A stretch of DNA of 32,918 nt, taken from IMG/VR virus record IMGVR_UViG_3300048586_000117, positions 1 to 32,918 of that record. One strand, 5' to 3'. The position numbers and the translations under genes were made by a program. Positions 19,496-31,757 of this stretch are shown here, piece after piece (positions within the stretch are counted from its first letter, which is position 1; every line of letters starts with the position of its first letter). The notes under the pieces were generated by a model, which saw nothing but the letters and a program-made list of their open reading frames with translations, ran no database searches and was not told the DNA's origin. This DNA comes from a virus.

Positions 19496-20245
19496 TCAGA
19501 CAGGGTTGGCCATAAGCCGCGCGTTCAGACGGGCGACACGCTGCGCCCGGTCCTTGATCGCAATGGCTTCGGCGTTCGGTTGCGCGTCCGGTTCAATCAC
19601 CGGCCCGGGCAGCGTCTCGGGGGCGGCCGCGAAGGCCGACAGGTCCCAGCGATTGGCGGCACGCTGAGTGTTTTCTTCGGCGACGGCATCGCAAAGACCC
19701 GCGGCTACGGCCTCTTCCGGCGTGAACCAGGTCTCGGCCGCCATCATAGCCTCGAAGGCCGCGCGATCGGTCTTGCCGTCTGCGCGGCCAGCGTAGGCAT
19801 CAGCAATCAGGCCATCGATCTTTTCCAGCAGATCGGCAGTGTCCCGCATGTCGGTGCAGTTGCCGATCGCAAGGCCCCAAGCGCGGTGGATCATCTGCAT
19901 GGAACCCGGAACCATGACACAGGTCGCGCAGTTCGATGCAATGACGCTGGCCGCAGAGGCGGCAAGACTGTCGATCTTCGCGGTGATCGGCGCAGGGTGC
20001 GACCGCATCTCGGCCACCATGGCCTGCGCCCCGAAAACCGACCCACCGGGCGAGTTGATCCGCAGTGTCACGGGCCCCGTGGTGGCGCGCAGGGCTTCGA
20101 TGAAGGCCGAAGGCGAAATGCCGCCCCACCATTCGGCCTCGAGATCGTCAGCCGCTATCGCGTCATAAAGCCAGATCGTGTTGTTCTCGGCCCGAAACTC
20201 GCCCTTGCCCTTGTTGGACATGCGCATCTGGATGTAGCGGCTCAT
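19496..20245 (-). CDS. ClpP/S49-like prohead protease (249 aa)
   Basis: Ser97 in DSLAASAASVIA and His120 in MQMIHRAWG are the predicted catalytic Ser and His. INSPGGSVFGAQAM (63-76) is the strand/oxyanion segment, and TWFTPEEAVAAGLCDAV is the C-terminal ClpP-type element. Phage ClpP-like proteases cut the scaffold domain of HK97-type capsid proteins during head maturation. The last about 50 residues form a separate charged tail. The start ATG overlaps the portal stop (ATGA). The gene sits between portal and capsid, as in HK97 and many siphoviruses. Confidence 0.92.
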   Translation of the reverse strand: MSRYIQMRMSNKGKGEFRAENNTIWLYDAIAADDLEAEWWGGISPSAFIEALRATTGPVTLRINSPGGSVFGAQAMVAEMRSHPAPITAKIDSLAASAASVIASNCATCVMVPGSMQMIHRAWGLAIGNCTDMRDTADLLEKIDGLIADAYAGRADGKTDRAAFEAMMAAETWFTPEEAVAAGLCDAVAEENTQRAANRWDLSAFAAAPETLPGPVIEPDAQPNAEAIAIKDRAQRVARLNARLMANPV

Positions 20246-21477
20246 GCGTCATCACCTTTCGACGGTGTCTGGGTCGGAACGGTGCCGACCATCTTCTTGG
20301 GCAGGCGCACCATGCGCCGGGCTTCCTCCAGGCTCAGGATCGAGGCCTCGCCCGCACGGCCAAGGCCGATCCGGACACCCTCAAACATCGCCTTGAAGTC
20401 GCCGCGCTCCAGTTCGGCAGTGTCGAACTCGGCACAATGCGTCGGACGCCGGAAGAACTTCCGGTTTATCTCGTTGTGGAAGGCGTTCAGGTGATCGCGC
20501 AGCGTGTAGCGCACGAAACCCGCACCCATTGCTTCGACACCCGTGCCCCAGCTGGAGGTCTTTTCCGTGTGCCCGATCATGAAGGGCGGCACGTTGAAGG
20601 CCCGGGCGATCTCTTCGATCTGAAATTTCCGGGTCTCCAGCAGCTGCATTTCCTCCATCGGCATGGTCAGCTCTTTCAGGTCGAGCCCGCCCTCGAGGAT
20701 CATCGGGCGACCGGCATTGGCCGGGCTCCGGTGAGCGTCCAGGCGCTCCTGCAGTGTGGCCCATTGCTCGTCAGTCAGGTTACCCGCCGCCTTAAGCAGG
20801 AAGTCTGGGCGCCCGGCATTCTGAAGGAAGTTGACCGAGAACTTCTGCGCCTCGATCGCCAGACGCCCACTGTGCCGCAGCGAATAGCGCAGCGCCGACA
20901 TGCCGCGCAGGCCGTTGAAGCCGAAGCCAGGGACGTGCAGCATGTCATCCTGATCCAGAACCCTGACCTTTGAGGCCTCGGCAGCCACTTTCGTCAGTGT
21001 CGGATCGGGCTGCACTTCGTAGATCAGCCTGCTGCCATCAGGGGTGGCGATCACGCGCACACGCTGCGGCAGCAGAGGCATCAGACCGGTGATGCTGCCA
21101 TCGCGCGCCCGCAGGATCTCCGCGAAGGCATCGCCATAGAGCAGCTTCGAGGCCGTCAGCATCGACCATCCTGCCGCAGCGGACCAGCGTGGGCAGAATT
21201 CTTCGTTCAGGACCCACCACAGCGGATGGCCATAGTCCTGCGCCAGATCGCCATCCTTGGCGCGCTGGTAGATGTTCATCGGCATCGCGGCAATCGCGCC
21301 TGAAATCAGCGATGTGCAGGCATAGACCGCCGTGACAGACATCGCCTCTTTCTCGGACGGCGCACCGCTACCAGTCCCGGTGAACGACTCCCACACGCCA
21401 TCGCCGCGACGAATGTTGCCGCTGTCGACCTCGGCACGGGGCCGGAACTTGTTCAAGATGCGCGCGAACAGGCTCAT
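20242..21477 (-). CDS. Portal protein, HK97 family (411 aa)
   Basis: The AMSVTAVYACTSLISGAIAAM segment, HPLWWVLNEEFCP, WSMLTASKLLYGDAFAEILR and DDMLHVPGFGFNGLRGMSALR are all typical of HK97-type portals, as is the IARAFNVPPFMIGHTEKTSSWG element toward the C-terminus. Twelve copies form the DNA entry channel at one head vertex. Length is normal. It overlaps terminase upstream and protease downstream by four bases each (ATGA), so it is translationally coupled to both. Confidence 0.93.
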   Translation of the reverse strand: MSLFARILNKFRPRAEVDSGNIRRGDGVWESFTGTGSGAPSEKEAMSVTAVYACTSLISGAIAAMPMNIYQRAKDGDLAQDYGHPLWWVLNEEFCPRWSAAAGWSMLTASKLLYGDAFAEILRARDGSITGLMPLLPQRVRVIATPDGSRLIYEVQPDPTLTKVAAEASKVRVLDQDDMLHVPGFGFNGLRGMSALRYSLRHSGRLAIEAQKFSVNFLQNAGRPDFLLKAAGNLTDEQWATLQERLDAHRSPANAGRPMILEGGLDLKELTMPMEEMQLLETRKFQIEEIARAFNVPPFMIGHTEKTSSWGTGVEAMGAGFVRYTLRDHLNAFHNEINRKFFRRPTHCAEFDTAELERGDFKAMFEGVRIGLGRAGEASILSLEEARRMVRLPKKMVGTVPTQTPSKGDDA

Positions 21478-23198
21478 GCGATACGGATCCTTGGTTCAAG
21501 CTTCGGCGCAGCCGCGGGGTTCAGGAACATCAGCATGGCCGCGTTGAACACAGCCATGAGCGGGTCGATCTTGGCCGCACCGGCAGCCTGTTTCGTGACG
21601 ATGTAGTTGGAACCTTTCAGCTCCTGTTTGGCGTTGCCCACGGCCCAGCCCATGATCGGCTGGCCGCCGTGGATCAGACGGCGCTCTTCCAGCTTCAGCG
21701 GAAGCGTCGAAATCGCGGTCTGCAACTTCCAGCCCTGACTGACCGCCACCACCTGCGGCTCACCAAGGCCACACGCCGCCAGCGCATCGACGAGCAGCGC
21801 AACGCCCGCCGAGTCGAGCCCGAAGGCCGCCGCCGCCGGCGCCTTGCCAGATGCCGCGACCAGTGCGCAAACGTCAGCCGCCTGCGCCGCCTGTTCCTCG
21901 CCAGTCGGCACCACGACAAGATCGCCATCGCGCTCGAAATCACGCAGCTGCGTGGCGATAAGCTTGCGCGCCTCGAAGACGCTCGGCCGGGCCCAACTGC
22001 GTGTCCACAAGAGCCACGCCTTGTCCTTGGCCCGCCGACCGATCACAGCCAGAGAGGCAAGGTCATCTGCGCCGCCCCAGTCCACGCCGACTGTCACGAC
22101 CTCGGATTCGTTCAGAAGCCGATCCAGCGTCAGACCCGGCTGCGCGCATTTCGGCCAGTCCCGCGCGCCGGGCCAGGCATCGCCAAACAGCGACTGCCCG
22201 ATCTCGACGTTCAGGTGTTGCGAGGCAAAGAGCGCAATTGCGCCGTCCCCGTTCTCCTCGGCCTTGGCCAGCTGATCCGCCAAAAATCCGGCATCGACAG
22301 ACCGGCCCATGTGCGGATTGACCAATGGCCATGTCGCCTGGTCTTTCCACCCATCGTTGACCGCCATTTCCACCGGCAGCTCATAGAGCACCGGTAGCAG
22401 CGAGGCGTTCAGATCGCCATCGCGCACGGCCCGCGCTTGCCGAAGCTCCGACTTGAACACGCCATGCGGCGGCGTCTTCGACTGCGTCGTGATCTGCAGC
22501 AGAAATCCCCGGTTCTGGGGGTGCGACAGACCCCCGCGGATCTCCACGAAGATCCCCTCGGCCTGCCTGTGCGAGGCAAAGACGTGGGTTTCATCGATCA
22601 GCACGATCGACGCCTTCGACCCGGTGATCACGTCCGCATCGGCGGCCTTGATCGTCATCTCTGACGGTACGTCCTGACTGAGATACCGGATCGTCTTGAT
22701 GTGCGAGTGAACCGAGAACAGGCTCGCGAGCGGCGTTCCCGATGGTGTTGCGGACAGTCGGATGATTCCGGCCGCCTGGTTGAAGCTGATCTCTGCAATC
22801 TTCTGCGTCGGCGCGATCAGCAGCGCCTCGGCATTCGGACGTTCATTCAGCAGCAGCGCCGTCACGATGATCGCCGCCGAGATCGAGGACTTCCCGTTCT
22901 TCTTGGGGATCAGGACGAAGTATTCCCGGATCATCCTCTGGCTGGTGACCGGGTCGAAGGCCCCGAAGATCGCCAGCACCAGGTCAAAGACCCACTCGCC
23001 GCAGACCTCGCCATAGGTCGGCGTGCCCTCGATGTCGGGCACCCGAAGGTTCTTGAAGATCCGCAGTGCCCGCTCGGCCCGTGCCCGGTCCAGCGGCAGC
23101 GCAGGCACGATCGACTTGCCTGCGCGGATGCGGTCTTTCCAGTCCGGCAGCGCTGTTGACCAAGCAGGGTCGAAGGCGCGGGCCGGTGTCATCAGCAT
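21474..23198 (-). CDS. terL: Terminase large subunit (574 aa)
   Basis: The N-terminal ATPase has Walker A IPKKNGKSS (97-105) and Walker B VLIDETH (199-205). The C-terminal nuclease begins VTVGVDWGGADDLASL (368-382), with Asp373 as the first metal-binding acid. This is the Terminase_1/YmfN-like HK97 type, which cuts concatemers and pumps DNA into proheads. The start MLMTP lies one base after the small subunit stop. The adjacent HNH nuclease gene and HK97-type subunits point to cos packaging. Confidence 0.94.
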   Translation of the reverse strand: MLMTPARAFDPAWSTALPDWKDRIRAGKSIVPALPLDRARAERALRIFKNLRVPDIEGTPTYGEVCGEWVFDLVLAIFGAFDPVTSQRMIREYFVLIPKKNGKSSISAAIIVTALLLNERPNAEALLIAPTQKIAEISFNQAAGIIRLSATPSGTPLASLFSVHSHIKTIRYLSQDVPSEMTIKAADADVITGSKASIVLIDETHVFASHRQAEGIFVEIRGGLSHPQNRGFLLQITTQSKTPPHGVFKSELRQARAVRDGDLNASLLPVLYELPVEMAVNDGWKDQATWPLVNPHMGRSVDAGFLADQLAKAEENGDGAIALFASQHLNVEIGQSLFGDAWPGARDWPKCAQPGLTLDRLLNESEVVTVGVDWGGADDLASLAVIGRRAKDKAWLLWTRSWARPSVFEARKLIATQLRDFERDGDLVVVPTGEEQAAQAADVCALVAASGKAPAAAAFGLDSAGVALLVDALAACGLGEPQVVAVSQGWKLQTAISTLPLKLEERRLIHGGQPIMGWAVGNAKQELKGSNYIVTKQAAGAAKIDPLMAVFNAAMLMFLNPAAAPKLEPRIRIA

Positions 23199-24228: not shown

Positions 24229-25095
24229 TTAAGCGTCAATCCCCTTTGATCCACGTGGGGGAGCATAGGCCATGGCCATGCGATCAAGCGCAGCACACAG
24301 CGCACGGCGGGCAGAAGCGCGGTTCTCACCCTTGTCAGCCCAACCATGCGCAGACAGCACCGCACTGACCGTCTGCCCGCCTAGGCACACGGCATCCACC
24401 AGAGCCCTATCCCGTATCCCGGCGCGGGTGCCGCGTTGAGACGGGCGGATGCGGCGGATCGCCAGCGCAGAACCGTCACCAATGGCCCGTTGCATGGCGC
24501 GGATCAGATTACCCTCATGGATGACCGTATCAATGAACGATCCACCTTGCCCGCTACCGCCGCCATGAGCCTCAACCGAAGAGCAGCGCATGCCGGATGA
24601 TGCATGCCGCTCAACAAGCATGGCATAGCGCCGACCCGTGGAGACCTGCAGGGCAGAGAACAAAGGCGCCTGCTGCTCGCCACCCTTGCGGGCAGCGCGG
24701 CGTGCCTGACGTTCCATCACGTCGAACGCATCAGCGGCACGGGCGCAGTCGCGGCCACGATAGCCGACATGTTCCACCTTCCAGCCCGCCTCGCCTTCCG
24801 GCATCAGGCCCATGGGGCTCACAGCCACCATCGGGCCGCGCGCAGGCTGCGCGATCATGTCAGGGCCACAACGCTCAGGCGGGGCCGCCATAGCCATGCG
24901 ATAGCGCAGTTGCAGCTGATCGATCTCGAAGGACGACAGCTTGCGCAGGTGCTCCATTTCACAGCGCAGCGTGTTGCAGGCCCAGGTCAGCGCCTCCCGC
25001 AGGCTGCGGGCCTCGGCCAGAACAGCCGCATCAAGATCCGCTGGACGCGAGAAGGTCTCCGACATCGCCATTTCCATCACCACCGCCCTGATCAT
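24229..25095 (-). CDS. Phage protein of unknown function (288 aa), possible late regulator
   Basis: The ATG at 25095 overlaps the preceding stop (ATGA); MSETF ten codons in is an alternative start. The N-terminal part is helical (LREALTWACNTLRCEMEHLRK). The middle has Met/Gly/Arg-rich segments and DVMERQARRAARKGGE. The C-terminal region, ALVDAVCLGGQTVSAVLSAHGW followed by NRASARRALCAALDRM, reads like a helix-turn-helix with a recognition helix near QTVSAVLSAHG. It is the last gene before the late operon, where phages often keep their late activator or antiterminator. No known family was recognised. Confidence 0.7.
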   Translation of the reverse strand: MIRAVVMEMAMSETFSRPADLDAAVLAEARSLREALTWACNTLRCEMEHLRKLSSFEIDQLQLRYRMAMAAPPERCGPDMIAQPARGPMVAVSPMGLMPEGEAGWKVEHVGYRGRDCARAADAFDVMERQARRAARKGGEQQAPLFSALQVSTGRRYAMLVERHASSGMRCSSVEAHGGGSGQGGSFIDTVIHEGNLIRAMQRAIGDGSALAIRRIRPSQRGTRAGIRDRALVDAVCLGGQTVSAVLSAHGWADKGENRASARRALCAALDRMAMAYAPPRGSKGIDA

Positions 25096-25529
25096 TTCCC
25101 GGCCTCATCGCTCATCTTGTTGCCTTTGAACACGCCACCACCAAATATTGAGAACACGCCCCGGCCATCAGGGACGGCAGGGACGGACACCTGATTTTTA
25201 GGGACGGACATTGCGCCACGGTGCCAAAAGTTTTTCCATTTCAGTTCATCGGCTTGAATGAAGGTCAGGGACGGTAGGGACGATAGGGAAGGAGTTTTCC
25301 GCCTACGCGTAAGAAATGGTTTGAAGCATTCCGGCATCATATTTGCGCGCGCGCATACGTAGGCCGCAAAATGCCTCCCTAGCGTCCCTACCGTCCCAAA
25401 CCATGCACCAAGGCGTTGATTGCAAACGACTTCCCCCGGACCCCCGTTAAGGTTTCCCCGTCCCAACTTTTGGGTTTGCGTCCCTACCGTCCCGGCTGCG
25501 AACATCAATGGGGTGCGGGGCGTCTGCAT
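25092..25529 (-). CDS. Uncertain ORF (145 aa) running through the iteron array
   Basis: The frame begins at ATG 25529, overlapping the helicase stop (TGATG), and ends overlapping the next ATG (ATGA). This is the usual sign of a real gene in this operon. But it reads straight through the iteron array, so the product contains repeat-derived peptides (GTVGT, SLSSLPSLTF, VSVPAVPDG) and lacks a recognisable domain. It may be a small coupled protein whose DNA also serves as origin, or an open frame kept only for translational coupling. Confidence 0.35.
   Translation of the reverse strand: MQTPRTPLMFAAGTVGTQTQKLGRGNLNGGPGEVVCNQRLGAWFGTVGTLGRHFAAYVCARANMMPECFKPFLTRRRKTPSLSSLPSLTFIQADELKWKNFWHRGAMSVPKNQVSVPAVPDGRGVFSIFGGGVFKGNKMSDEAGK
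25170..25494. repeat. Symmetric iteron array, candidate phage replication origin
   Basis: Twelve 9-bp units close to AGGGACGGT are present. On the plus strand they lie at 25170-25187 (two), 25200-25208 (one) and 25267-25293 (three). On the minus strand they lie at 25372-25398 (three), 25457-25465 (one) and 25477-25494 (two). The 2-1-3 | 3-1-2 layout mirrors around 25332.5, to the base for the central and single units and to within one base for the outer pairs. GCCTACG (25301-25307) and CGTAGGC (25358-25364) share the same axis. The 40-bp arms 25268-25307 and 25358-25397 agree at about 33 positions. The centre holds an alternating GCGCGCGCGC run. The array lies directly downstream of the replicative helicase gene, as initiator-bound origins often do. 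Confidence 0.75.
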
Positions 25530-27334
25530 CACATGCCCCCTTCATCGCCATAGCCGCCCATATCGACCGGTGATCCGATGATCTTGCCGCGCTGGTCGCG
25601 AGGGGCATGGCGCAAGTCTCGACCAAACATGTCGGTCCACCTGACGCCGAGGTAGAACGTGGTCGAGGCCTTGTGCGCCTCAAAACTGCGCCCGGTCGCA
25701 GGGTGCCGCCACTTGCCGGCCTTTTCGCCCTTGATGCGCTTGGCGATGGTGTTTGGCTGCCATTCCCCGAGGCCATCGCGGGCACGCCAGAAGTTGAACG
25801 CCTCGATCATGTCCTTGGCCATGATCTTGTCTGTCGGGTCACCGGTCACGGTGGTGCAGTCGGTCAGGAACTGGCCGATCGGGTCACTCTCGGCCCGGAA
25901 CTCGGCAGTTGCCACCCGCACTTCCTCGGGCTCATCCAGACCGCCTTCCAGATAGTCGAGCAGGCCCTCGACAGCCCACCGCAAGATGCCCGGCGCCTCT
26001 TGCCTGAGCTTCTTCTGCAGATCCGGATCACGCTCGTCCTTCGTGATGTGCTGGTCAAAGGGCACCAGAAGCAGGCGGCGCCATATGCCCTCATCCGTGC
26101 CCCGGATATCCGGCTTGTGGTTGCCGCTGATTGTCAGCTTGAAGCACGGCAGGAACTCGAAGAAGTCCTGCTGCAATGCCCGAACCAGCATGGGTTCCCC
26201 GCCGGTCAGTTCCTTGATCAGGCCCTCTTGCCACTTCACCCCCTCATCTGGCTCACTGGCGCGCACGAAACGGGCGCCGACGAGTTGCACGAGGTCCGGA
26301 GTTGCATCGCCCCCGCCGCGCCGGTTCGAGCCCGTCAAACTCTCGATCTTGGCAACGGCAGCATAGTCACTGAGAAGCCAGGCCATAAGGTCGACCAGCA
26401 CAGACTTGCCGTTGGCCCCGGTGCCATAGAAGTAGCAGAGCTTCTGTTCGCCCGTCAGCGCGGTCATGCACAACCCGAACCAGCGCTGCAGGAAACGACG
26501 CATGCGCTCTTCCGGCATGATCCGACGCAGGAAGTCATCGAACCGCGGGCAAGTCGCCTTCGGATCGTAGGCGTGCGGGATGATCTTCGTCAGCAGCTGA
26601 TCACGCGCATGCGGGATGACATCGACCCGAGACACCTTGGAAAAGCCTGCGTCACCTCCCCCATCGACACTGAATCGGAGCACACCAGAAGCGCAGTTCA
26701 CGTCCAGCGCGCCTGCGTCCAGTTGATCGACTTGGCGAGAAAGCGCGATCGAGGCCTCATTGATCATGTTGCCGATCGGCGCTGAGTTGCCCGCATTCTT
26801 GGCGTGCCGCAGGCGCTGACCAATACTGTCCTGGACGCCAGACAGCACATGCATGATCTCATCGAGCTGCGGGCGCAGATCAGACAACTCGGCCTCTTGT
26901 TCCGGCGTCCGCTTGCTGGGCGGGATACGCTTCAGTCGCGCAATATCGGCCTCGATCTCAGCACGGCGTTCGACCAGTTCTGCCCGATCGGGAGGCACCG
27001 AGATAAAGCGGACCTCCTTTTCGATCAGGGGGCCGAGTGTCTGCGCCTTTCCGCGCACCACAAGCATGTCAGGGTCTTTGACCCAAACCTGCCCACTCCA
27101 GTCATACCAGCCGACGCGGGGCACCCAGATCAGGTTTTCACCGAAATGGATGCGGAACCTCTGGCCATTGCCGGTGTCGTTCAGCGTTTGCTCGGCACAG
27201 TTGGCGATCCGCGCCCAGAGTTCCGGATCTTCATCAGGGCCAAGCCCCGCCATTGGGTCGGCGGAAGGACGGGCGCGGCGCTCCGCCAACGGACTTATGC
27301 CCGCGAAAGCATCATCATCGTCATGGTCGCTCAT
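25529..27334 (-). CDS. D5/P4-family replicative helicase (601 aa)
   Basis: Start chosen at ATG 27334 (MSDHDDDDAF), overlapping the upstream stop (ATGA); 180 further in-frame residues are a shadow of neighbouring genes. The C-terminal half is an SF3 helicase of the phage/plasmid primase P4 type. It has Walker A GTGANGKS (304-311), a Walker-B-like ARFVRASEPDEG (354-365) and sensor LTISGNHKP (400-408, Asn405). The D5_N-type region precedes it, with a charged coiled-coil insert at about 115-165. No TOPRIM or archaeo-eukaryotic primase motif is visible, so it looks like a helicase without its own primase domain. It probably unwinds the phage origin, which lies just downstream. Confidence 0.9.
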   Translation of the reverse strand: MSDHDDDDAFAGISPLAERRARPSADPMAGLGPDEDPELWARIANCAEQTLNDTGNGQRFRIHFGENLIWVPRVGWYDWSGQVWVKDPDMLVVRGKAQTLGPLIEKEVRFISVPPDRAELVERRAEIEADIARLKRIPPSKRTPEQEAELSDLRPQLDEIMHVLSGVQDSIGQRLRHAKNAGNSAPIGNMINEASIALSRQVDQLDAGALDVNCASGVLRFSVDGGGDAGFSKVSRVDVIPHARDQLLTKIIPHAYDPKATCPRFDDFLRRIMPEERMRRFLQRWFGLCMTALTGEQKLCYFYGTGANGKSVLVDLMAWLLSDYAAVAKIESLTGSNRRGGGDATPDLVQLVGARFVRASEPDEGVKWQEGLIKELTGGEPMLVRALQQDFFEFLPCFKLTISGNHKPDIRGTDEGIWRRLLLVPFDQHITKDERDPDLQKKLRQEAPGILRWAVEGLLDYLEGGLDEPEEVRVATAEFRAESDPIGQFLTDCTTVTGDPTDKIMAKDMIEAFNFWRARDGLGEWQPNTIAKRIKGEKAGKWRHPATGRSFEAHKASTTFYLGVRWTDMFGRDLRHAPRDQRGKIIGSPVDMGGYGDEGGM

Positions 27335-27447: not shown

Positions 27448-27878
27448 CTTGCCTTCCCCCTGAACACGCCCTTGGGATCGACGCGGGACAAGAACGCGCG
27501 CTTTTCCGTATCTGGCATGCTCTGCCACAGCGCGACGAACAGCCGCTTGCGGGTTTCGGCCGCAAAGGCAGTTGTGCCCATGCGCCGCAGGCCCGCACCG
27601 ACATAGGCCTCGAGTTCGGCCGGGCTCGCGATGTCAGCCCAGAAGGTGGCATCGCTACGCATATTGTCCGCGAAGAAGGCAAGCTCCGGCGACCCTGCCC
27701 CGGCTTCCTCCAGGAACCCGGCCGCAGCTTCCAGCGCTGCGCGATTGTCCATCTCGGCAAGGCGATAGAGCGCGCGCAGGGCGGCCACCGCGACCATGTC
27801 ACGCTTCCATGCCCGAAATTCGGCCGAGGCCTCATAGGCCGATCGGATATCGTCCGCGCTGGCGGTTGCCCCATCCAT
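27444..27878 (-). CDS. Conserved-looking helical phage protein (144 aa)
   Basis: Start at ATG 27878, overlapping the stop of the multi-HTH gene (TGATG). The protein is almost wholly helical and Ala-rich. Features are AEFRAWKRDMVAVAALRALYR, then ELAFFADNMRSDATFWADIASP, and a C-terminal TRKRLFVALWQSMPDTEKRAFL. Composition and layout suggest a small all-alpha protein, perhaps acting with the replication genes on either side. No catalytic motif or known family was recognised. Confidence 0.7.
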   Translation of the reverse strand: MDGATASADDIRSAYEASAEFRAWKRDMVAVAALRALYRLAEMDNRAALEAAAGFLEEAGAGSPELAFFADNMRSDATFWADIASPAELEAYVGAGLRRMGTTAFAAETRKRLFVALWQSMPDTEKRAFLSRVDPKGVFRGKAR

Positions 27879-29311
27879 CACGCTGCCGCCTTCATCGGAC
27901 GGTTTGGCTTTCCGGCAAGCCCGAGTTCAGCAATATCCACCGAGATCGTCGCATGGCTGACGCGAAGCGCCTCTGCCATCTTCCGGATGCTCATGCCCTC
28001 GGCGCGCAGCCGCTCCACCTGCTTCTGGCGTTCCGCCTTGGCATTTTTCTCGCCGACCAATCCGAGCGCGCGAATGTCCATTGTGACGGTGTAGGAGCTG
28101 ATGCCCAATGCGGCGGTGATCTCGGCCAGCGATGCACCTGCAGCGCGCATCTTTGCGACCTTCTGACGCCTCATCTCTATAACATTGACCCTGCCTGTCC
28201 GCAGTCCGAGGCGTGCAAGGGTGCGGCGGACAGTGTTGACGGCCAATCCGACCCTTGAGGCGATCTCATCCTGTGTCAGCCCCTCAGCGACCAGATCGCG
28301 GATCACGTCATCCCGCTTGGCGATCGCCTCCCGGATCTCTGCCGCGCGGCCAGACCGCCCCCGCATCAGCGCTTCTTTCTGCGGAAGGATCGCGAAACCA
28401 AGAGCGCGGAGGTCTTTCCGCGCCGTGATGACATGCACGCCAACCTCAGCGGCAATGGCACTGACGGTCATTCCCTGATTATAGAGCGCCTGGACGCGGT
28501 TACGACGCTGGCTCTGCTGTTCCCGCTGCATTGCCAGCCGCTCTGACTTGGCAGAGGTCATCGAGACGCCGCTTACTGGCTGCAGTCCCATCCTCTTCAC
28601 GTCGAGCGCCACCACGCGGTTCGACAGGCGCAGAATCCGCGAGACTTCGGACATGTAGTGCCCTGCCTCGATCAACCTGCGCACCTCCGCGCGCCGCGAC
28701 AGAATGGCTGCTCGCGTGGCCGAGCATTCAGCCTTTACCCGTGGCTTGGCCTTGGGCCGTTCCCGACGCTTGACTTCGATCCCGAGCTTGGCCGCAACGG
28801 CCTGAACGACCTTGCGCGAAAAGCCAACATCAAGACCGATCTGGTCGGCAGTCCAGCCAAGCGCCGCAAGCTCTGCGATCCGGGCATTGCGGGCCAGAAC
28901 AGCCGGATGAACGGCATATGGCGTCTTCTTGGCGAAAATGCTGGTGGGTGGCTTGACCGGCTCGAGCCCCAGAACGAAGAGGTCAGTCGAAATTGTGCTG
29001 GGATTGACGCCCAGCCTGCGGGCGATCTCTGACGACCAGACGCCCTCTGCATGCATCCGGGCCACCTCGGCACGACGCGCGGCCATCTCTTCCGCCCGGA
29101 CAGGTGCCTTGCGGGCACGGATGTATGGCGCATCGCGCGCTGCCCGCTTTCTGGCCTCGGCATCTGGATAACGCAGCTGGTTTGTCTTTGGATCCCAAAC
29201 CGGCGCCTGCCAGGCACTCTTGCCAACTGGCAGCACCTGCACGGCGGCATCTGGAACCGGGCATCCGTAGCGTGCGGCGACCTCGGCCGCGATCTGTTGC
29301 TCGCGGGTCAT
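27878..29311 (-). CDS. Protein of seven tandem helix-turn-helix units (477 aa)
   Basis: After an N-terminal region (1-75), seven similar about 38-residue units occur at 79-117, 141-178, 206-244, 269-306, 332-370, 381-418 and 428-465. Each has the pattern R-x-x-V-x-x-L-x-A-x-G-x-[ST]-x-x-E-I-A-x-x-L-G-V-[ST]-x-x-T-V-x-x-D-[IL]-x-x-L-G-L, a DeoR/sigma-4-like HTH ending in LGL. Examples are EGLTQDEIASRVGLAVNTVR and EGMSIRKMAEALRVSHATIS. Spacing is 62-65 residues for the first units and 47-49 for the last. The start overlaps the DUF3310 stop (ATGA). An array of DNA-binding units encoded next to a helicase and an iteron origin suggests an origin-binding initiator or organiser. Confidence 0.85.
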   Translation of the reverse strand: MTREQQIAAEVAARYGCPVPDAAVQVLPVGKSAWQAPVWDPKTNQLRYPDAEARKRAARDAPYIRARKAPVRAEEMAARRAEVARMHAEGVWSSEIARRLGVNPSTISTDLFVLGLEPVKPPTSIFAKKTPYAVHPAVLARNARIAELAALGWTADQIGLDVGFSRKVVQAVAAKLGIEVKRRERPKAKPRVKAECSATRAAILSRRAEVRRLIEAGHYMSEVSRILRLSNRVVALDVKRMGLQPVSGVSMTSAKSERLAMQREQQSQRRNRVQALYNQGMTVSAIAAEVGVHVITARKDLRALGFAILPQKEALMRGRSGRAAEIREAIAKRDDVIRDLVAEGLTQDEIASRVGLAVNTVRRTLARLGLRTGRVNVIEMRRQKVAKMRAAGASLAEITAALGISSYTVTMDIRALGLVGEKNAKAERQKQVERLRAEGMSIRKMAEALRVSHATISVDIAELGLAGKPNRPMKAAA

Positions 29312-31061: not shown

Positions 31062-31757
31062 TTGAGAACCACATGGCTCCTACTCTTGACGGTGGCGATA
31101 GCACCAGCCGCGCAGGCCACCACTGACGACGCGGCATTGATTGCAGAAGCGCAGAAATGCACCGAGATCGAAGGCGCTGGATTGCGCATGACTTGCTATG
31201 ACGCCGTGTTTACGGGAGACGGGAAAGCCATCCTGCCCCAACCATCCGGCGAACCCACCACTGAGGACCCAGGCGAGGTAGTCGACCTCCGCAATGAGAT
31301 CCCGCCGGGCGGCAAGTGGTCTGTGCAACGCAGCAAATCAGCGATGACCGACCAGGAATCCATCTTCCTTTCGGTCGAGTCCAACGAGGAGGTGCAGTGT
31401 CAGAAGTTTGGGCCTCCCAGCACGGTGCATCTTGTCGCACGCTGCCTGGAGAACCGAACCTCGCTCTACATCACGGGAGACTGCCACGTTGCCTCCGGGT
31501 TCTATGGGTATGGCAAGGTCACAGTACGATTGGACGATGGAAAGCCGTTCAACCGGAATATGGATGCCAGCACAGACAATCAGGCGCTTGGCCTCTGGAG
31601 CGGAGGAGAGGCGATACCCCTACTGAAGCAGATGCTCGGAAAAGAGCGGATGATCGCGAGGTTCACGCCATTTAGCAGCGACCCGGTCGAGCCTTCGTTC
31701 GATATCTCGGGGCTGGACGCGGTGATATCGACCCTGAGAGAGGCTTGTGGGTGGTAA
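31062..31757 (+). CDS. TagO/VasI-like exported protein (231 aa)
   Basis: Starts at TTG 31062, with GAGGG 8 bases upstream; no in-frame ATG exists near. Residues 1-19 are a signal peptide (LLLLTVAIAPAAQA). The mature part has the pattern of type VI secretion-associated TagO/VasI: LIAEAQKCTEIEGAGLRMTC near the N-terminus (Cys33, Cys45), KWSVQRSKSAMTDQESIFL, VHLVARCLENRTSLYI, VTVRLDDGKP, ARFTPFSSDP and the end FDISGLDAVISTLREACGW. Six cysteines suggest periplasmic disulfides. No T6SS genes are nearby, so it looks like a lysogenic-conversion gene placed next to the immunity region. Confidence 0.8.
   Translation: MRTTWLLLLTVAIAPAAQATTDDAALIAEAQKCTEIEGAGLRMTCYDAVFTGDGKAILPQPSGEPTTEDPGEVVDLRNEIPPGGKWSVQRSKSAMTDQESIFLSVESNEEVQCQKFGPPSTVHLVARCLENRTSLYITGDCHVASGFYGYGKVTVRLDDGKPFNRNMDASTDNQALGLWSGGEAIPLLKQMLGKERMIARFTPFSSDPVEPSFDISGLDAVISTLREACGW

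Follow-up and report, generated by a model that had tools for sequence, protein, structure and literature searches.

A mirror-symmetric array of twelve 9-bp units just downstream of a D5-type helicase gene is very probably the start site of phage DNA copying, to judge from its sequence. The array lies in a complete IMG/VR virus record of 32,918 bp, which was analyzed whole (the window). Computation reveals the array itself, a layout conserved among relatives, covariation of the units with a winged helix at the C terminus of the D5 protein, and IHF-like and G-rich elements. A preliminary description of the window had proposed that these units are the iterons of a phage origin beside a D5 helicase gene, and this reading is supported by recurrence of the layout, by the winged-helix covariation, and by the annotated origins of phages A2 and Sfi21. 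More specifically, we consider it likely that the array is a bidirectional, theta-type lytic origin that the phage's own D5 helicase recognizes by means of the winged helix at its C terminus.

All twelve units were found where they had first been placed (25170–25494), with six on the plus strand facing six on the minus strand in a 2-1-3|3-1-2 layout (Table 1). They carry zero to three mismatches to AGGGACGGT, the weakest being AGGGAGGCA at 25372–25380. The window scores 95/108 when fitted to this layout, compared with a median of 66 and a maximum of 73 among 300 dinucleotide shuffles in each of which the motif was re-derived, and real sequence taken upstream of D5 genes as a control (83 regions) scores at most 78. 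An unsupervised motif search of the window, a check proposed in the preliminary description, also retrieves the layout. Successive gaps across the array measure 12, 58, 78 (the core), 58, and 11 bp, so that the 58-base gaps are identical and the lengths of the outer gaps differ by one base, as had been noted. Mirror sums of 50665 for the single and triplet units confirm one axis at 25332.5, with the outer pair one base off, and the second dyad (GCCTACG/CGTAGGC) has the same mirror sum. A repeat search of the window pairs the two arms over 62 nt as an inverted repeat of 76% complementarity. The D5 stop codon (25529) lies 34 bp from the end of the array, close to the 35 bp originally estimated. 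A direct-repeat iteron origin of the lambda or plasmid type, with units in one orientation and a one-sided melting region, was rejected as a candidate, since here six units oppose six.

Table 1. Positions of the array units, associated elements, and D5 gene in the window.
Feature	Position	Strand	Details
Outer pair of 9-bp units, D5-distal arm	25170..25187	+	AGGGACGGC AGGGACGGA; starts 25170, 25179
Single unit, D5-distal arm	25200..25208	+	AGGGACGGA; start 25200
IHF-like counterpart (mirrored, weak)	25244..25256	+	GTTCATCGGCTTG; 3 mismatches; 10 bp outside triplet
Inner triplet, D5-distal arm	25267..25293	+	AGGGACGGT AGGGACGAT AGGGAAGGA; starts 25267, 25276, 25285
Core between inner triplets	25294..25371		78 bp, ~51% GC (direct count)
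Inner dyad arm	25301..25307	+	GCCTACG
Inner dyad arm	25358..25364	-	CGTAGGC
Inner triplet, D5-proximal arm	25372..25398	-	AGGGAGGCA, AGGGACGCT, TGGGACGGT; units 25372-25380, 25381-25389, 25390-25398
IHF-like site	25409..25421	-	AATCAACGCCTTG; 0 mismatches to WATCAANNNNTTR; 10 bp outside inner triplet
G-rich element, D5-proximal arm only	25433..25445	-	GGGGGTCCGGGGG
Single unit, D5-proximal arm	25457..25465	-	TGGGACGGG
Outer pair of units, D5-proximal arm	25477..25494	-	AGGGACGCA, CGGGACGGT; units 25477-25485, 25486-25494
D5-type SF3 helicase gene	25529..27334	-	likely start MSDHDDDD; open frame to 27874
Region coding C-terminal winged helix (predicted unit-binding domain)	25637..25882	-	residues 485-566; secondary structure, covariation

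The recognized phage genes of the window, namely portal (20242–21477), terminase large subunit (21474–23198), and D5 helicase, all lie on the minus strand. D5 contains the Pfam domains D5_N and DUF5906 and the primase_Cterm domain TIGR01613, and its predicted structure (pLDDT 90) matches the SaPI5 helicase 7ola. GC skew along the record has no turn at the array and is uninformative because nearly all large genes share one direction. D5 also has as a neighbor, beside a DUF3310 gene, a 477-aa protein (27878–29311, minus strand) in which helix-turn-helix domains recur several times. Near the record edges are plus-strand SRAP peptidase, Fic-domain, and VasI-like genes (485–1108, 1829–2548, 31062–31757), possibly host or cargo genes.

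The layout recurs across relatives of this phage. Using tblastn and pattern scans, we collected D5-relative loci, 9 from phages and 160 from viral or bacterial contigs; a single-protein query against viral contigs found no relatives, and an alignment query did yield them. Unsupervised 9-mer search downstream of D5 recovers a mirrored array in most loci, and in an explicit layout fit 136/166 regions exceed the shuffle maximum of 77. The preliminary description would have been undermined by relatives without the array, and it withstood this comparison, with arrays (score at least 82) in 122/166 regions. Most array-bearing relatives are Rhodobacterales prophages and phages. Among the 93 non-redundant arrays of these 122 (D5 less than 95% identical), the commonest spacing is an arm gap of 58 bp, an outer gap of 12–13 bp, and a core of 73–76 bp. 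Both arm gaps are 58 ± 2 bp in 51 of the 80 non-redundant arrays with same-orientation singles, and another 13/93 arrays, several of them from Rhizobiales, are fitted best with an inverted single unit. The array starts a median of 73 bp past the D5 stop codon, with 14 of the 93 at 0.4–2.1 kb, including RR1-A, where two genes intervene. A conserved toprim-primase-type gene lies near the array in 76/93 relatives, but a search of the window gave no toprim primase. No array of this kind turned up in RcCronus, whose D5 is more distant, or by motif scan in Arthrobacter phage YesChef, and the fits of a Methylobacterium D5 plasmid (75) and of pGEOTH02 (65) fall inside the null range.

In four records that bear cyanobacterial phage labels (Synechococcus, Pseudanabaena, Microcystis, and Nostoc), D5 and the array are close to those of Rhodobacterales prophages, and the true hosts may be Alphaproteobacteria. 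The Methylobacterium plasmid (M. currus unnamed3, 46 kb) combines D5 with ParA and type I-E cas1e and cas2e. Phaeobacter inhibens pP88_h is a phage-plasmid with an array and repA/repB, in which an acyl-homoserine-lactone synthase adjoins an autoinducer-binding regulator. That D5 is the sole replicon of array-bearing phage-plasmids was rejected, as another plasmid cassette is present.

In contrast to the spacing, the unit words differ widely among relatives (AGGGAGGAT, TGGGCCTGA, ACGGCCCGA, and others), ranging from GGGAGGAT to GGGCCTGA, CGGCCCGA, GGGTCGTC, and GGACAGCT-like forms. What the relatives share is thus the scaffold, not the word. The nearest relative, a Gemmobacter aquaticus prophage whose D5 is 99% identical, aligns without gaps to the window at 95.2% identity across 600 bp around the array; 3 of the 14 differences in the array fall in units, which make up one third of its length, a deviation in the expected direction that is too small in number to test.

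Divergence of the unit tracks the C terminus of D5. For the 93 loci, we set the distance between units, pair by pair, against the corresponding distance for every conserved protein family encoded within ~5 kb. The correlation with the D5 C terminus (residues 470 onward) is modest overall (rho 0.217; partial 0.238 after accounting for the helicase domain) and exceeds all 500 label permutations, which reach at most 0.095, whereas the D5 helicase and N-terminal domains give 0.06. Other nearby conserved families have partials of at most 0.135, always below that of the D5 C terminus on the same loci, and unit divergence does not track the ATPase domain, terminase, toprim primase, or other conserved neighbors. 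At equal column entropy, C-terminal columns carry more unit information (P ~ 1e-5, variable classes), and within the predicted winged helix this excess peaks at the wing (mean z 1.86) and the recognition helix (1.67). For example, C-type units occur with F503, G/S526, T559, and G560 in 27/27 cases, and even the best predictors outside the C terminus are weaker; residues 526, 559, and 560 sit at the recognition helix and wing of the predicted structure. Unit class switches about seven times on the helicase-domain tree, and in a tree-paired test of only seven pairs, a number that cannot reach P = 0.05, four to five agree and none oppose (P ~ 0.06–0.13). Together, these patterns suggest that D5 binds the units through its C-terminal winged helix.

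Further elements occupy recurrent positions between the units. The integration host factor IHF has the consensus WATCAANNNNTTR, and IHF-like sites in the 58-bp gaps point at the inner triplet and end 10–11 bp from it. Sites with at most one mismatch are present in 46/93 D5-proximal and 29/93 distal arms, at a density of 8.9 per kb in arms vs. 0.3 per kb in flanking DNA, and IHF may bind there. A second element, GGGG-N1-4-GGGG and mostly GGGGTNNGGGGG, is found in 74/93 proximal arms (7.8 expected from shuffles) and 0/93 distal arms, and on the same strand in 46/93 cores (1.4 expected). It is ~70 times denser in the proximal arm than in the flanks (14.4 vs. 0.2 per kb). Since it is confined to one arm, this element is directional, whereas the units and bend sites are mirrored; a role in priming can only be guessed at. 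Cores have a median GC content of 55%, vs. 64% for their own loci (93 arrays), and the core of the window is only mildly AT-rich. In these cores, A/T bases are concentrated directly inside each triplet, CGCGCG is clustered, and CGCGCGCG tracts occur in 38/93 (2 expected). TACGC recurs in relatives 9–12 bp inside the triplet edge.

These features are consistent with a mechanism in which a D5 (SF3) helicase would load itself on the array, as at SaPI origins. Each six-unit arm (2-1-3) would gather helicase subunits, and IHF bound in the 58-bp gap would bend the arm and bring the outer pair and single unit beside the inner triplet. With the arms gathered and bent in this way, two D5 hexamers could load face to face across the core, opening it and starting two forks. 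Binding, the stoichiometry of six plus six, bending, melting, and bidirectionality are each inferred.

Other roles for the array can be weighed against the same evidence. Being intergenic and potentially bound by D5, it could be an operator through which D5 or a phage repressor controls the operon or downstream late genes, and some initiators do self-regulate at their own origin. However, the array lies downstream of the D5 gene rather than at its promoter, a fixed 325-bp mirrored geometry with bend sites is unusual for operators, and two annotated origins occupy the same place; transcriptional control is unlikely. Still less probable is a plasmid-type partition site. Centromeres can be repeat arrays and two array carriers are phage-plasmids, but array-bearing phage-plasmids have a separate repA/repB or ParA/ParB-type cassette elsewhere, most of the remaining carriers are integrated prophages, and the array goes with D5. 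We give almost no weight to the array being part of a coding frame: although a 146-aa minus-strand ORF spanning it is open (25092–25532), only 31/93 arrays are open in any frame, the frames vary, and no conserved family covers the array.

Packaging is the remaining alternative, with the repeats serving either as binding sites for the small terminase or as the borders of a cos cut. HNH/terminase is indeed the next conserved gene cluster, and the RcapNL record marks a 26-nt "3' cohesive overhang" at both ends, inside its array. Yet RcapNL was later listed as circularly permuted (PMC8601537), at odds with that overhang, and Pthi1 has the array yet behaves as pac-type (PMC6536676). Moreover, unit divergence tracks no terminase-side family, the phage-plasmids L184 and pP88_h share the array geometry although one has a TerL and the other a gpA-type terminase, and the cos site of Sfi21 lies ~6 kb from the Sfi21 origin. 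We consider packaging very unlikely, and overall a replication origin is preferred, with the terminase/cos, coding, and operator readings either rejected or disfavored.

As candidate origins, these arrays offer ~90 distinct natural examples with a single geometry and many recognition words, so that an SF3 helicase recognition code becomes readable and testable. In a bacterial phage that is tractable, two hexamers with six sites each becomes a prediction that can be counted, and it bears on the double-hexamer question for SaPI and SV40. The layout also provides a rule for locating origins in many uncharacterized prophages. A broader and distinctly tentative proposal is that temperate phages of Alphaproteobacteria might share a general origin code: a rigid, IHF-folded scaffold of six plus six would provide one site per D5 hexamer subunit, the unit word and its matching winged helix would be exchanged together, keeping replication separate, and the G-rich element of one arm would give direction (e.g., first priming).

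Comparison with known origins suggests a place for the array among those of self-loading helicases. The alpha protein of phage P4, an SF3 helicase-primase of the P4 family, binds its own iterons, and P4 uses two separate loci (ori and crr); here, by contrast, a single mirrored array holds all units, and most relatives encode the primase in a separate gene. Records of phages A2 and Sfi21 annotate a replication origin just downstream of a D5-type gene, and mirrored repeat groups are present in both annotated stretches. In Lactobacillus phage A2, the rep_origin has mirrored groups of ACGGGAGGAT units at 64-bp spacing, but fewer units and an AT-rich core. In Streptococcus phage Sfi21, a 302-bp noncoding element has repeats mirrored around a centre, but with a AGTTACTT-like unit, fewer inner units, and a strongly AT-rich core; its AGTTACTT/AAGTAACT groups were read by eye and missed by motif scan. 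According to PMC6356513, which cites Foley et al. 1998, the Sfi21 element works as an origin on its own once infection activates it. Mirrored repeats after D5 are also seen, by motif scan with no shuffle null, in Methanoculleus virus Blf4 and a Listeria phage.

The closest mechanistic parallel is the SaPI rep-ori of staphylococcal islands, where a D5_N/Primase_Cterm helicase lies beside an origin with opposite-orientation repeats (PMC9894130, PMC10061031) that direct two self-loading helicases (PMC9894130). The window likewise has opposed repeat clusters around a centre beside a helicase gene, and an SF3 helicase of the D5_N/Primase_Cterm type as its candidate initiator. Relative to SaPI, as known from published description, the array here has fixed 2-1-3|3-1-2 9-bp units, 58-bp gaps that contain IHF-like sites, a G-rich element on one side only, and a GC-richer core. 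The SV40 origin is alike by analogy only: T-antigen, also an SF3 helicase, is loaded on opposed sites, where it forms a head-to-head double hexamer (PMC9894130), but the initiator domain and number of sites differ. The preliminary description knew of no origin with the mirrored 2-1-3 layout. This holds for the fixed 2-1-3|3-1-2 layout, for which we found no published description in open-access text; mirror symmetry itself is not new, since opposed repeats that recruit two head-to-head helicases are already described at SaPI and SV40 origins (PMC9894130). The array is a probable variant of the self-loading-helicase origin, and what it adds is a rigid 2-1-3|3-1-2 scaffold kept across dozens of phages, paired change of unit and winged helix, and mirrored IHF-like sites.
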